Source: an uncultured Phycisphaerae bacterium (GTDB lineage Bacteria; Planctomycetota; Phycisphaerae; UBA1845; Fen-1342). From it: a stretch of DNA of 64,000 nucleotides. The stretch spans positions 62,001 to 126,000 of the forward strand of contig CALGJV010000007.1 of the NCBI GenBank assembly GCA_937928595.1, in the 5' to 3' direction. A program made the position numbers and the translations under genes. The first letter of the stretch is position 1; each line of letters starts with the position of its first letter. The notes below the pieces were generated by a model. It saw nothing but the letters and a program-made list of their open reading frames with translations, searched no databases and was not told where the DNA came from. Positions 5,749-59,827 of the stretch are shown here, piece after piece.

Positions 5749-6493
5749 CGCCCGGGGGCGGCGGGAGGAAAGCTCCGCGGCCGTCCGAGGCCGAGCGGGA
5801 GCCAGACGCCACGGGCGAGGGATTGAGGGACTAAAGGACTGAGAATTTGGGGTTGCGTCTGCGGCGGACCCTGTAGCGGCCGATGCCCCCGTCGGCCGTC
5901 CGTCCGAACGCGAAGCGCCGGCGAGCGCGACCGCGAATCTGCTTGATCCGCCGCGCTGCCCAAGACACTGCTCAAGAGCAGTGGCACCCGCGCAGTGGCA
6001 CCCGGCCCCCATGCGTCCCGCAGGGACGGCATGACCGTAGCCCAGCACGGAGTGCTGGGTCCGAACGACGCGGCGCCGCGGTGCGTCCCGTAGGGACGCG
6101 GTGAAGACCGCATCCGTCTCCCACCCCCGAGCGTGCCGCTACAAGATGGGGACGCCGTGATGAGGGCTGGGGCGCCCCATTGCACCTGCGTCGGCCATTG
6201 GCCGGTGCCACACGGACCGCCCGAGCCCCCCTCGTATTCGAACGCGAAGCGTTGGCGACGGCGGCCGGTACACCGGGGCTGACGTGAGCAGCCGGTACAC
6301 CTTGGCCGACGGGGGCCGGCCGCTACCGCGATCTGGTGGTACCCGCTTGGGACGCGGCACGGTTGCGACGCCCGCGCGCGCTCCGCCCGGAGTCGGACTC
6401 TACGGGCGGGACGCCCGCGTTCCCCTCGACGCAACATGCAGAGGAAGCGCCCGGGCCAACAGTGCCCCCCCCGCGGACCTGCATCGGCAGCCC
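5749..6493. repeat. Repeat-rich non-coding region between the hox and lut operons
   Basis: No credible gene is visible in about 745 bases. The stretch is built of short repeats. The phrase CGAACGCGAAGCG-YY-GGCGA occurs at 5905 and 6239. GCAGTGGCACCCG is repeated in tandem near 5980-6005. CCGGTACACC occurs at about 6265 and 6292. Short perfect hairpins are frequent, for example CGGGCG-GGA-CGCCCG at 6403-6417. The pattern resembles REP-like intergenic elements; no transposase is present. Confidence 0.6.
6015..6106. repeat. Pair of CGTCCC-n3-GGGACG hairpin repeats 70 bp apart
   Basis: Two near-identical 22-bp units begin at 6015 and 6085: GCGTCCCG(C/T)AGGGACG followed by a variable trinucleotide and TGA. 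Each is a perfect hairpin (CGTCCC/GGGACG with loop GCA or GTA). Between them lies another perfect hairpin, CCCAGCAC-GGA-GTGCTGGG (6043-6061). The even 70-bp spacing and paired hairpins are typical of REP/BIME-type dispersed elements. They could also act as a bidirectional transcription stop between the convergent operons. Confidence 0.6.
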
Positions 6494-7234
6494 TCAGCAC
6501 AGCACGCAGTGCACGTGCCCAGGGCCGTGGACGCCCGTCACGAGCACGCCTTCAATGTCCGCCGTCTTGCTGGGGCCCGTGATGAGGTTCACATTCGCCG
6601 GCAGTGTCGCCCCGAGCCGCGGGTCGGCGAAGTACTCCAGCAGGTCGCCCACGATCTGCGCCGGGTCCACCAGCGCCACGAGCGCCGGCGGCACCAGCGA
6701 CGTGCCGCGCGCGGTCTGCGGCCCCGTCGCCGTCACCAGCGTGCCCGTTTCCGCGAGCGCCGCCGTCACTCCTGCCACGGCGGCGTCCACCCCGTCGAAC
6801 AGCGTGTCGTCATCCGGCCGCACCAGGGGCTCGCGCCCGGCTGCCCGCAGAGCCGCGGCCAGCGCCTCGGCCTCGGCCGCGCGAAACGCAGTGTGGTCGG
6901 CCGCCTCCAGCAGAATCCGCCGGGCGCCGAGTTTCTCCAGCACTGCCAGCACGACGGGCACCCAGGCCTGCCGCGCCGCGCGGTGGACCGTCACACCCAC
7001 GGCCGTCGCGGCCGCGGTGAAGACGGCGACGCGGTCGGCGTCCGGCGGCACGGCGCGGAGGTCGAGGTGATCGCCGGGCAGCGGCGCGTCGGGGGAGTCC
7101 GCGGACACCGCGCGTTCACCGGGCGCAGCACCCCGGGCGTCGCCGCCGGCCGCGCGCGGCGCGGCCGCCCGCAGCCGGGCCAGCAGCGCGTCGAACGTGG
7201 CGGGCGGCGCGGGTGGCCGCGAATCAGCGTTCAT
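6494..7234 (-). CDS. lutC: LutC/YkgG-type LUD domain protein, L-lactate utilization
   Basis: This third member of the LutABC iron-sulfur lactate dehydrogenase system is 246 residues long. The C-terminal half is a LUD domain, with 'ETGTLVTATG' and the final 'TGPSKTADIEGVLVTGVHGPG' region that is diagnostic of the family. The N-terminal ~60 residues are Ala/Pro-rich and probably poorly ordered. Its start overlaps the end of lutB by 11 nt, so it is the last gene of a three-gene minus-strand operon (lutA-lutB-lutC). Confidence 0.9.
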   Translation of the reverse strand: MNADSRPPAPPATFDALLARLRAAAPRAAGGDARGAAPGERAVSADSPDAPLPGDHLDLRAVPPDADRVAVFTAAATAVGVTVHRAARQAWVPVVLAVLEKLGARRILLEAADHTAFRAAEAEALAAALRAAGREPLVRPDDDTLFDGVDAAVAGVTAALAETGTLVTATGPQTARGTSLVPPALVALVDPAQIVGDLLEYFADPRLGATLPANVNLITGPSKTADIEGVLVTGVHGPGHVHCVLC

Positions 7235-55583: not shown

Positions 55584-55619
55584 CGCCTCGGGGCCGCTGC
55601 GGCGGTGCGGAGAGTGTCT

Positions 55620-56618
55620 ATGGGCGTCACGCACGGCGACATCCGGCAGGTCGGCGAACTCGTGCGGGAGCACGGGCGGCATTTCGAGCGGGTGCTGAGC
55701 GAGCTGCGGCGCGTGATCGTGGGGCAGGAGGCCCTGCTGCGGAAGATGCTTGCGGGCTTGCTGGCCGACGGTCACATTCTGCTCGAGGGCGTGCCGGGCC
55801 TCGCGAAGACGACCGCGGTCGCGTGCCTGGCCCGCACGATCCGGCTGCTCTTCAAGCGCATCCAGTTCACGCCGGACCTCCTGCCCGCGGACATTCTCGG
55901 GACGATGATCTTCCAGGCCCGGGACGGGACGTTCGAGCTGCGCAAGGGACCGGTCTTCGCGAACATCATCCTGGCCGACGAGGTGAACCGCGCCCCGGCC
56001 AAGGTGCAGAGCGCCCTGCTGGAGGTCATGCAGGAGCGGCACGTCACGATCGGCACCGAGACGCACCCCGTCCCGACGCCGTTCATGGTCCTCGCGACGC
56101 AGAACCCGATCGAGCAGGAGGGCACGTACCCGCTGCCCGAAGCGCAGGTCGACCGGTTCATGCTCAAGCTGCTGGTCGACTACCCGACGGCGGATGAAGA
56201 GCGGCAGATTCTCGACCGCATGGCCCCGCAGCGCGGGACACCGCAGGTGAGCGAAGTGCTCGAGCCGGCGGAGCTCCTCGCCGCCCGCCAGGTACTGGAC
56301 GAGATCTACATCGACGACAAAGTAAAGGATTACATCGTTACGCTCGTGCAGGCCACGCGGACCCCGGCGGCGGCGGGGCTCGAGATCGGGGCGTGGATCG
56401 AGTACGGCGCGTCCCCGCGGGCGACCATCTACCTGGCCCGGGGGGCCCGGGCGATGGCGTTCTTGGCCGGACGGGGCTACGTGACGCCGCAGGATGTCAA
56501 GGACATTGCCCCGGACGTGCTGCGGCACCGCGTGATCGTGAGCTACGAGGCGGAGGCGGAAGAGAAGACCAGCGACGACATCGTGCGGTGCGTGCTCGAC
56601 CGCGTGCCCGTCCCCTGA
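55620..56618 (+). CDS. MoxR-family AAA+ ATPase
   Basis: A 332-residue AAA+ protein: '[33 protein letters not shown]' contains the MoxR GQ motif and Walker A (GVPGLAKT), '[26 protein letters not shown]' Walker B, '[25 protein letters not shown]' sensor 1/Arg finger. MoxR proteins act as chaperones, usually next to VWA and DUF58 genes. None is adjacent here; instead it follows the acyl-CoA dehydrogenase gene by 36 nt. The ATG with GGAGAG upstream is preferred over a longer reading. Confidence 0.93.
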
Positions 56619-56742
56619 GTCGCCGTCCGAAAAGGTGCGGCGGCCCTTTCTCTCACGTGGGGACCGTGATAGCATCACCAAGTTGGGCTATTGTGAGGGA
56701 AAAATCGCTCCCGAGCCGTGCGCCCGATCGGCGAAAAAAAGT

Positions 56743-56863
56743 GGCGGAGGGCAACCTATCGGCGACAGGTGCCCTTCCGCCGGCGCAGCACCACCCCAGT
56801 GGGGAGCCGGGTGGTGCATCTTGCGGCGAGGTGTGTCCTGACGACACGCCTCGTCCGCTTTTT
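56743..56863 (+). ncRNA. Candidate structured RNA: three consecutive hairpins ending in a terminator
   Basis: Hairpin 1 (56743-56781): GGCGGA-GGGC-a-ACCT / AGGT-GCCC-t-TCCGCC, 14 pairs with two single bulges. Hairpin 2 (56788-56817): GCACCACC / GGTGGTGC. Hairpin 3 (56827-56853): CGAGGTGTGTC / GACACGCCTCG with one G-U pair, followed by TCCGC and TTTTT. The last is an intrinsic terminator in the plus direction. It could be an independent small RNA or the structured 3' UTR of moxR. No known family is recognised. Confidence 0.45.
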
Positions 56864-57020
56864 ACGACCGACCTGCAACTACTGGCAACACCGGTCGGAT
56901 GCGAGCGAAGCCGAACCCGCTTCCCCATAAACGCTAGGCCGCGCCGCGCCTTCTTTTCCACCCGCACCGGGAGAAATGCCCCAAAATCGTGGGCTTGCGC
57001 CGCGCCGCCGCCCACTCAAC

Positions 57021-57047
57021 AAAAAGGGCCCGCTCTTAGCGGGCCCT
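57021..57047 (-). terminator. Strong intrinsic terminator (minus strand)
   Basis: On the minus strand AGGGCCCGC-TAAGA-GCGGGCCCT followed by TTTT (five T counting the last paired base). Perfect 9-bp GC-rich stem with a U-tract. No minus-strand protein gene is upstream, so it must end a small transcript. Confidence 0.75.
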
Positions 57048-57099
57048 CTTAGGAGGAGTTCATAGGAGGGTCCTGTGCGACCCTCAGGAGGAGGAGTTG

Positions 57100-57255
57100 T
57101 CAGGTTCTAGGCCCGCTTCCGTCCCCCAGTCCACCAAAACACGTCTTTTTTTGCCGCACCACCGTGCAGCCGTCCCGGTTCGGCTCAAGCGCGCCCCCTG
57201 GAACGAAGCCAAAGAAGAAGGACCAGCTTGGCCAAGCCGGTCCTTCAACAGTCAT
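57100..57255 (-). CDS. Questionable 51-residue open frame in the RNA-rich region
   Basis: The frame encodes MTVEGPAWPSWSFFFGF... ending in ...GDGSGPRT, with an aromatic cluster and two Cys. The ATG has only a weak GGA upstream, and the first third coincides with a long palindromic hairpin, so the peptide may be an accident of the RNA structure. It ends ~50 nt before the intrinsic terminator, which would be a normal gene-terminator distance. Confidence 0.2.
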   Translation of the reverse strand: MTVEGPAWPSWSFFFGFVPGGALEPNRDGCTVVRQKKTCFGGLGDGSGPRT

Positions 57256-57414
57256 AAGCGTCCATTGCTTCGTTCCCGCCCTTCGGCTCCCGTGAAGAGC
57301 AGAAACTCTGGACTCCGTGAAACTATAAGCACCGCAATTCCCGCCTTTCCAGTCTGGCCGAGCAAAAAAGCCGCCGCGCAGCCCTTGGCACTCGGCCGAA
57401 CCGCGCCTTAGTAC

Positions 57415-57442
57415 TTGCGAAAAATAAGTTTATGTTCACAAT
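57415..57442 (+). promoter_or_regulatory. Weak promoter candidate for the GH65 gene
   Basis: TTGCGA, 16-base AT-rich spacer, CACAAT, about 45 nt before the ATG at 57488. Neither box is close to consensus, but the local AT-richness is notable. Confidence 0.3.
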
Positions 57443-57487
57443 GCCCGGTCGACGCTGATCGCCGCGTGGAACCGGGAGAAACTTAGA

Positions 57488-59827
57488 ATGTCCTATAAAA
57501 CGCGGGCTTCGAGACGATCAAAAAGTCGGAAGGTACACGCCGAAAGAACCTCCACCGGTCCCGAAATGGCGCCTGAGCCAACTTGGTTCGTTTTGTGGGA
57601 GCGCTCCAGCATCGCAAGCGCCGGGCACGAAGCCACGGTCTTTTCGCTCTCGAACGGGTACATCGCAGTTCGCGGAACCCATCCCGAGGACGCCGACGGC
57701 GGCTTGCCCGGTACGCCCATCGCCGGCATCTACACCGACGACCGCCTCGGCTTTCGAACGCTCGTCACTTGCGACCACTGGCTCGGCGTGAGCGTGCGGG
57801 CTGCCGGCCGCACGTTGAGCCCGCGGGGCACCGACGTCACCGCGTACGCGCGCCGCTTCGATCTTCGTCGCGGTTGCGTGGCGCGCACGCTGACTTGGGC
57901 GCCGACGCCGCGCGTGGCGCTGGAGATCGAGACCACGCACTTCGCGAGCCGCGCGCACCCGCGCCTCGCGCTCCAGCGGTACGTCGTCCGCGGCCTGCGC
58001 GGCACGGTCGATGTCTTCTGCCGCGCCACGGTGACCGCGCGCGTCCGCACCCGCGGCGAGTACCTGCTGGCCGGCCACCGCACCACGCGTCACGGCCCCG
58101 GCTGCACGACCATCTCGCGCACCCGGGACGGCGGCTACCGCATCGCCCGGCATGCGGTCGCACATTGCGACGACGAACCGGTGGCGCCGCGGACCGACGC
58201 AGCCGGCGCCACCTGGACGGTCCGCCGACGGTTGCGCGCCGGGCAGACGCTCACGCTGGTCAAGTACGTGGGCTTCGCGACCTCGCGCGACGGCGGTCCC
58301 GACTTTGCCGACGTCGCGGCCGCGGTCGCGGCGGGAGCGGCGGAGCACGGCTTCGACGCGGCCCTGGCCGACCATGTCGCGGCCTGGCGGGCCTTCTGGC
58401 GGGACGCCGATCTCGTCCTGGACGGCGACCCGGCGCTTCAGACCGCGACGCGCTACACCGTGGCGCAGCTCCTGAGTCATGCGGCGTCGGAGGACGACAC
58501 GGTCAGTCTTGCGGCCAAGCCGCTGTCGGCCGAGGGCTATCGCGGGCACGTGTTCTGGGACACGGACCTGTTCATGGCGCCGGCGATCACCGCACTGGCA
58601 CCGGAGCTGGGCCGCAATCTCGTCAATTACCGCCACTACACGCTCGACGGCGCCCGCCGCAACGCCCGCCGCTGGGGCTACCGCGGGGCGTGGTACCCGT
58701 GGGAGAGCGCGGACGACGGCACGGAGGTCACACCGCGCTTCTGGCTGCGGAGCGACGGCCGCCGCATGCCGATCACGTGCTGGAAATACGAGATCCACTC
58801 GGTCTGCGGCGTGGCGTACGCGGCCTGGGATTACTACCTCGCCACGGGGGACGAGGACTGGCTGCTCGCGCGTGGCGTTGAGATTCTGCTGGAAACCGCG
58901 CGGTTCTGGGCCTCGCGGGCGGTCTACGTACCGCGCCGCCGGCGCTACGAGATCCACAACGTCTGCGGCCCGGACGAGTGTCACGAGCACGTCGACAACT
59001 CCGCCTACATCAACGTGTTGGCGCAGTGGAACATCGCCCGCGCGCTGGACACGCTCGCGCGGCTGCGCCAGACCCGCCCGGCCGCGGCCCGCGAACTTCT
59101 CCGCCGGCTGGAGCTGAGCGCGGCCGAGCTGGCGGCGGTCCGGCGCGTCGGCCGGCGGCTCTACATCCCGCGCGACCGGGCGACCGGCTGGTACCGGCAG
59201 TTCGACGGCTTCGAGCGGCTCCGCTTCATCGACCCCGCCACCGCGCAGGAGCGGTTCGCGAACCCCGTCCACGCCGAGCGGACGCAGGTCGTCAAACAGG
59301 CCGACGTCATCATGCTGCTCTACCTGCTTCGCGGCCGGCACACGCGCGCCGAGATGCTGGCCAACTGGGACTACTACCTGCCGCGCACCCAGCACAACAC
59401 GTCGCTCTCGGCCGGCACGCACGCCGCGGTGGCCGCCCGGATCGGGCTGCTGCGGACCGTGGTGCGGTTCTTCACCGAAGCGGTGAACATGGACCTGCGG
59501 AACTGGCGCGGCGACAGCGACCGGGGCCTGCACGGGGCGGCGCTGGGCGGCGCGATCTGTGCATTGCTGTTCGGGTTCGGCGGTTTGCAATTCCAGGAAG
59601 AGCAACTCGTCGTCGAGCCGACGCTGCCGCCCGGCTGGCGGCGACTGCGCCTCCCGTTCTGCTACCAGGGCCGGCGCCTGCGGCTCGACGTGACCGCCGC
59701 GGGCTACGAGCTGCGCTTCCGGACCCGCGGCGGCGGACCGGTCGCCATCGTGACGAGCGGTCGGCGGCAAGTCCTGCGGCCGGGCGGCGTGGTCCGCGGA
59801 CCGTTGCAGCCGCCGCTGCGGGAGTAG
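57488..59827 (+). CDS. Glycoside hydrolase family 65 enzyme (disaccharide phosphorylase or hydrolase)
   Basis: A 779-residue GH65 protein. These enzymes phosphorolyse maltose, trehalose, kojibiose or nigerose, or hydrolyse them. The N-terminal beta-sandwich (from 'FSLSNGYIAVRGTHPED') is followed by the (alpha/alpha)6 barrel with 'HVFWDTDLFMAPAI' and the catalytic-acid motif CGPDECHEHVDNSAYIN (493-509, Glu in 497-500). 'VVKQADVIML' and 'RTQHNTSLSAGTHA' form the region that binds phosphate in phosphorylases. The first ~28 residues are basic and of lower GC; translation could also begin at the internal ATG near residue 27. Exact substrate not determinable. Confidence 0.9.
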   Translation: MSYKTRASRRSKSRKVHAERTSTGPEMAPEPTWFVLWERSSIASAGHEATVFSLSNGYIAVRGTHPEDADGGLPGTPIAGIYTDDRLGFRTLVTCDHWLGVSVRAAGRTLSPRGTDVTAYARRFDLRRGCVARTLTWAPTPRVALEIETTHFASRAHPRLALQRYVVRGLRGTVDVFCRATVTARVRTRGEYLLAGHRTTRHGPGCTTISRTRDGGYRIARHAVAHCDDEPVAPRTDAAGATWTVRRRLRAGQTLTLVKYVGFATSRDGGPDFADVAAAVAAGAAEHGFDAALADHVAAWRAFWRDADLVLDGDPALQTATRYTVAQLLSHAASEDDTVSLAAKPLSAEGYRGHVFWDTDLFMAPAITALAPELGRNLVNYRHYTLDGARRNARRWGYRGAWYPWESADDGTEVTPRFWLRSDGRRMPITCWKYEIHSVCGVAYAAWDYYLATGDEDWLLARGVEILLETARFWASRAVYVPRRRRYEIHNVCGPDECHEHVDNSAYINVLAQWNIARALDTLARLRQTRPAAARELLRRLELSAAELAAVRRVGRRLYIPRDRATGWYRQFDGFERLRFIDPATAQERFANPVHAERTQVVKQADVIMLLYLLRGRHTRAEMLANWDYYLPRTQHNTSLSAGTHAAVAARIGLLRTVVRFFTEAVNMDLRNWRGDSDRGLHGAALGGAICALLFGFGGLQFQEEQLVVEPTLPPGWRRLRLPFCYQGRRLRLDVTAAGYELRFRTRGGGPVAIVTSGRRQVLRPGGVVRGPLQPPLRE

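Follow-up and report, generated by a model that had tools for sequence, protein, structure and literature searches.

In the window, the whole stretch of 64,000 nucleotides analysed here from an uncultured Phycisphaerae bacterium, the interval between the moxR gene (55605-56618) and the GH65 gene (57488-59827) is best read, at a probability of roughly 0.7, as a tandem minus-strand array of three predicted small-RNA (sRNA) genes in the order C, B and A, with one promoter type common to all. The two flanking genes were confirmed by Pfam, and the interval had been regarded in a preliminary description of the region as a small-RNA locus lying between them. The same-strand array, the common promoter, the anti-Shine-Dalgarno (anti-SD) stretches of B and the complementarity between the loops of A and C had not been seen in that description. 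The array, its common motif, the terminator-type ends, the covariation, the multi-copy family and the loop complementarity are read from the sequences, and the array is inferred from them to be transcribed.

Each of the three units starts with the motif TGGAM-N15-KGCYTA, which gives three same-strand copies within 420 bp. These exact matches on the minus strand are TGGAA-N15-TGCTTA for C (57326-57351), TGGAC-N15-GGCCTA for B (57108-57133) and TGGAA-N15-GGCCTA for A (56935-56960). The spacing within the motif is kept exactly in 25 of 28 B units and in all eight A units of the close homologues, and an A- or T-tract is found upstream of it in many homologues. The whole 3.69-Mb genome contains eight exact matches, against 15 for a reversed control, and five of the eight are promoters of these RNAs, three in the window and two at additional B copies on contig C9. 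As the pattern was derived from these very sites, its rarity and fixed spacing are informative and its enrichment is not. A pattern combining the promoter with CUCCUCC, searched in 294 genomes of the phylum, did not rise above the reversed control outside the window's genome. The type of a promoter generally points to the sigma factor that reads it, and the 16S rRNA promoter of this genome looks like the ordinary sigma70 type (TTGCAA-N17-TACTAT). Since the promoters of the array are unlike it, an alternative sigma factor probably turns on C, B and A together, and the common promoter provides a handle on that factor. One exact match elsewhere in the genome (L152, G000:C6:121671) shortly precedes a possible start codon, and the protein read from there begins much like a signal peptide; this is perhaps another gene of the regulon, or a chance occurrence.

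The folding of the region was compared with that of dinucleotide-shuffled sequences. The segment 56730-56870 on the plus strand has a z-score of -5.95, with none of 200 shuffles folding as well, 57017-57130 on the minus strand has -3.7, and 57190-57290 has -3.0 on the minus and -3.4 on the plus strand. The predicted units reach -5.3 (A, minus strand), -4.8 (A, plus strand), -4.4 (B) and -4.6 (C), and three neighbouring stretches outside the units only -0.6 to -1.0. A plain terminator scan, taken alone, is not significant (four terminators found, 2.3 +/- 1.8 expected), so the case for small RNAs is built on conservation. Loci carrying conserved blocks were obtained by a DNA search over 61 genomes, in which four relatives, all from this family, matched separate blocks. 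Pairwise comparison delimits the blocks 56686-56865, 57006-57134 and 57257-57352, which adjoin moxR in two relatives. In minus-strand alignments every block opens with the promoter motif and closes with a hairpin, followed by a U run in many copies; as terminator-type ends, those of B and A have a clear U run in the window and that of C has one only in relatives. Rows similar to the C-B-A array are present in other genomes of the same family. All hairpins listed in the preliminary description exist at the positions given there. It had named a lack of conservation or covariation among relatives, beside an absence of transcripts, as a possible refutation of a small-RNA locus; on comparison the stems proved to be conserved, with strong covariation in A, B and C at a level reached by no shuffle or permutation (0/500 for A, 0/500 for B and 0/5000 for C).

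Unit B (57021-57101, minus strand) is a predicted anti-SD sRNA of about 80 nt with a predicted 5' end. It consists of a first anti-SD stretch, CUCCUCCUCC (57087-57096), an internal hairpin of 7 bp (57066-57085), a second anti-SD stretch, CUCCUCC (57052-57058), and an intrinsic terminator (57021-57047) with five U residues (57025-57021), all on the minus strand. The CUCCUCC stretches thus stand on either side of the internal hairpin, the second directly before the terminator. Among the 17 base pairs, 14 have changed on both sides in the homologues (7/7 in the internal hairpin and 7/10 in the terminator). Among the parts that vary least between the B homologues are the CUCCUCC(UCC) stretches, the first of which is invariant in the close ones. 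The 16S rRNA of the same genome ends in CACCUCCUUUCU, which the anti-SD stretches of B repeat; as expected of anti-SD sRNAs, CUCCUCCUCC is unpaired in the predicted fold and identical to the anti-SD tail of the 16S rRNA. Both stretches are present in the window B and its close relatives, and many paralogues carry only one.

As B copies the tail with which the ribosome reads mRNAs, it probably blocks the translation of selected mRNAs. Most likely it acts as an anti-SD sRNA, stopping translation by pairing at ribosome-binding sites: the unpaired CUCCUCC would pair with AGGAGG-type sites of target mRNAs. In the crude set of open reading frames of the window, with starts assigned mechanically, SD sites are not enriched (6/35 against 5/35), so the targets of B may be few.

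B belongs to a multi-copy family with three copies in this genome, the two others being tandem B-type RNAs on the plus strand of contig C9 (G000:C9:6692-6781 and 6980-7072, loci L127 and L171), each with a TGGAM promoter. A first covariance model detected the family in 15 of the 27 genomes of the window's family and a refined model in 17, with tandem pairs frequent. In G030, which belongs to another family of the same order, three tandem B-like copies (G030:C244:133270-133906, minus strand, loci L163 and L167) have an intact promoter and a motif that has drifted to CCUCCUACUCCC. The refined model, applied to a sample of 298 genomes of the class, gave matches in family members only. One match, in G028, has no CUCCUCC motif and appears to overlap a coding sequence; it was not counted as B. 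A search of named genomes guided by MoxR retrieved only distant MoxR genes (57-66% identity), and the 58 loci scanned contained no B unit except for one weak match. Planctomycetota MAGs are among the nearest MoxR relatives with a name, in accord with the preliminary description, which had looked to planctomycete genomes.

The occurrence of several B copies per genome at different places, and of hairpins between convergent and divergent genes, would also suit terminators and dispersed REP-like repeats between genes that give rise to no regulatory RNA. Such an origin is very improbable, as a promoter of fixed spacing precedes the B and A units, the unpaired CUCCUCC and the loops vary less than the stems and, unlike mobile repeats, the copies differ in stem sequence.

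Among known sRNAs, two alphaproteobacterial groups resemble the predicted B RNA. The ar8 family, with SisA-D of Caulobacter (PMC12559287), shares with it a short length, a hairpin, a single-stranded C-rich anti-SD stretch, a Rho-independent terminator and the presence of several paralogues. The layout thus agrees, with the anti-SD core placed after a hairpin and before the terminator, but the core differs, being UUUCCUCCCU in ar8/SisA and CUCCUCC(UCC) in B, so that B was not assigned to that family. Moreover, the promoters of SisA-D are unrelated to each other, whereas the units of the array all use one type. The ar14 family, with NfeR1, the cuckoo RNAs and CcsR1-4 (RF02344; PMC10746234, PMC10253847), is similar in that a single RNA contains an anti-SD motif of the CCUCCUCC type more than once, as do the window B and its close relatives, and in its variable stems; it also has clustered copies in some species, and NfeR1 is Hfq-independent. 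However, ar14 RNAs have three hairpins with CCUCCUCCC in the unpaired regions (PMC10746234), whereas B has one internal hairpin and a terminator, with CUCCUCC(UCC) in the linkers flanking the internal hairpin. At the gathering score, neither the region nor any of five homologous loci matched an Rfam family; the sub-threshold matches are weak, the best being ar14 (E 0.07), with 22.8 bits against a gathering cut-off of 58.8. NfeR1 acts by pairing with SD sequences and SisA is thought to do so (PMC10746234, PMC12559287).

Unit A (56734-56928, minus strand) is predicted to be an RNA of about 195 nt, its 5' end again being a prediction. It comprises hairpin 1 (56743-56781), followed on the minus strand by seven U residues (56740-56734), hairpin 2 (56788-56818, minus strand), whose loop GGCUCCC (56808-56802) is invariant in 14 homologues, and hairpin 3 (56825-56855), which serves either strand: in close relatives it is a terminator on the plus strand, whereas in distant ones it terminates C on the minus strand. 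A model of the unit found it in 12 of the 27 family genomes; the order's 87 other genomes gave no match. Of its 37 base pairs, 23 have changed on both sides.

The hairpins at 56743-56863 had been described earlier as a plus-strand trio. The hairpins themselves stand, but they may belong to either strand. On the plus-strand reading, A would be an RNA of about 190 nt starting from a sigma70-type promoter downstream of moxR and ending at hairpin 3; together with the minus-strand promoter this would make an antisense pair, and the loop of A would then read GGGAGCC, the same as that of C and not its complement. A possible promoter of this kind lies at 56647-56675 on the plus strand, weak in the window and better in six relatives; the pattern TTG-N17-TARANT occurs between moxR and A, at a similar distance, in six of the eight close relatives (L097-L102). 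U runs follow hairpin 3 in six of these eight, in which hairpin 3 also leans to the plus strand (4 G.U and 7 A.C cells); the plus strand has a fold z-score of its own, given above, and folds better in G013, and some relatives have a weak minus-strand U run or none. Against it, the cells of hairpins 1 and 2 speak for the minus strand, with 17 G.U against 2 A.C in the minus reading, and with 11 against 2 in the eight close relatives alone, which are the fairer sample since the search that yielded the distant members used a model of the minus strand. The minus strand folds better in 13 of 14 cases, the minus-strand promoter is exact in 8/8 close homologues, and distant members have the terminator of C where the plus-strand terminator would stand. 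Thus, a plus-strand A appears rather unlikely, and A is taken here as a minus-strand RNA; the plus-strand promoter and the U runs after hairpin 3 in close relatives make transcription from both strands possible.

Unit C (57215-57316, minus strand), for which an RNA of about 100 nt is predicted with its 5' end inferred from the promoter, has a hairpin (57260-57313) with the loop ACGGGAGCC (GGGAGCC at 57291-57285) and a terminator-type hairpin (57217-57246), whose U run is weak here and strong in L010 and L014. The preliminary description had placed in this part a nested structure at 57200-57276; its stems exist, and its 10-bp outer stem was rejected, as the bases belong to the C hairpin and the outer partner has, as judged by eye, no counterpart in the relative L010. 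An identical loop is carried on different stems by nine other hairpins. The stems vary between genomes, and yet each arm fits the partner beside which it occurs (7.5 of 8 pairs; 6.0 when arms are swapped), a difference reached in none of 5000 permutations of the ten hairpins, which were chosen by eye. At five places (L101, L103, L105, L106 and L107) C directly adjoins the core of A, and hairpin 3 is there the terminator of C. In L105 (G023), on the minus strand between its promoter and position 1635, two C-type hairpins that differ from each other stand in a row, both having the loop ACGGGAGCC.

The A loop GGCUCCC is exactly complementary to the C loop GGGAGCC over seven bases, with a loop duplex of -13.7 kcal/mol; A and C thus have the complementary exposed stretches typical of an sRNA and its sponge, provided that A is read on the minus strand. 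The two loops would form a 7-bp loop-loop contact, and as they can pair, C is most likely a sponge or partner of A; both loops being invariant, covariation does not prove their pairing. A parallel is offered by SisA, which is held in check by the sponge CrfA via a complementary G/A-rich stem-loop (PMC12559287). The array likewise has a second sRNA with a complementary stem-loop, and C may play a CrfA-like part toward A. However, SisA itself pairs with CrfA, whereas the loop-complementary pair in the array is C and A, not B.

CsrA binds GGA in hairpin loops, and the known decoys of CsrA carry several such sites. C, and possibly A too, could accordingly be a decoy of the CsrB/RsmZ type, the match to the A loop being a by-product. 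C indeed has GGA within the loop ACGGGAGCC at the tip of a stable hairpin, and CsrA was found in 26 of the 27 genomes of the window's family. This explanation is improbable, as C offers a single site per RNA, or two in L105, and its longer conserved loop extends to GCC, which CsrA does not need.

Hfq (PF17209), on which an Hfq-dependent sRNA would rely, was detected in none of the 27 family genomes, the control genomes being positive. The SisA-CrfA pair uses Hfq; with Hfq not found and CsrA present in these genomes, any chaperone of the predicted RNAs must be another protein. A broader reading, tentative and at somewhat less than even odds, is that this lineage, in which Hfq is not detected, possesses an sRNA regulon of its own, in which a dedicated alternative-sigma promoter serves almost only tandem sRNA genes and the anti-SD sRNA B is combined in one array with A and its sponge C.

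Outside the Proteobacteria and the Gram-positives the number of known sRNAs is small, and a survey (PMC9029176) lists eight annotated ones for the Planctomycetes-Verrucomicrobia-Chlamydiae group as a whole. A literature search found no description of anti-SD sRNAs with a possible sponge pair for this lineage. Anti-SD sRNAs here would be distinct from the families described in alphaproteobacteria and would be at work in genomes with no Hfq detected, which makes it testable whether such RNAs have more than one origin and how they act without Hfq. As to other structured RNAs, no tRNA or tmRNA was found in the window, and an Acido-Lenti-1 RNA (RF01687) was matched at 6014-6059 on the minus strand with 37.9 bits, barely over the cut-off of 37.
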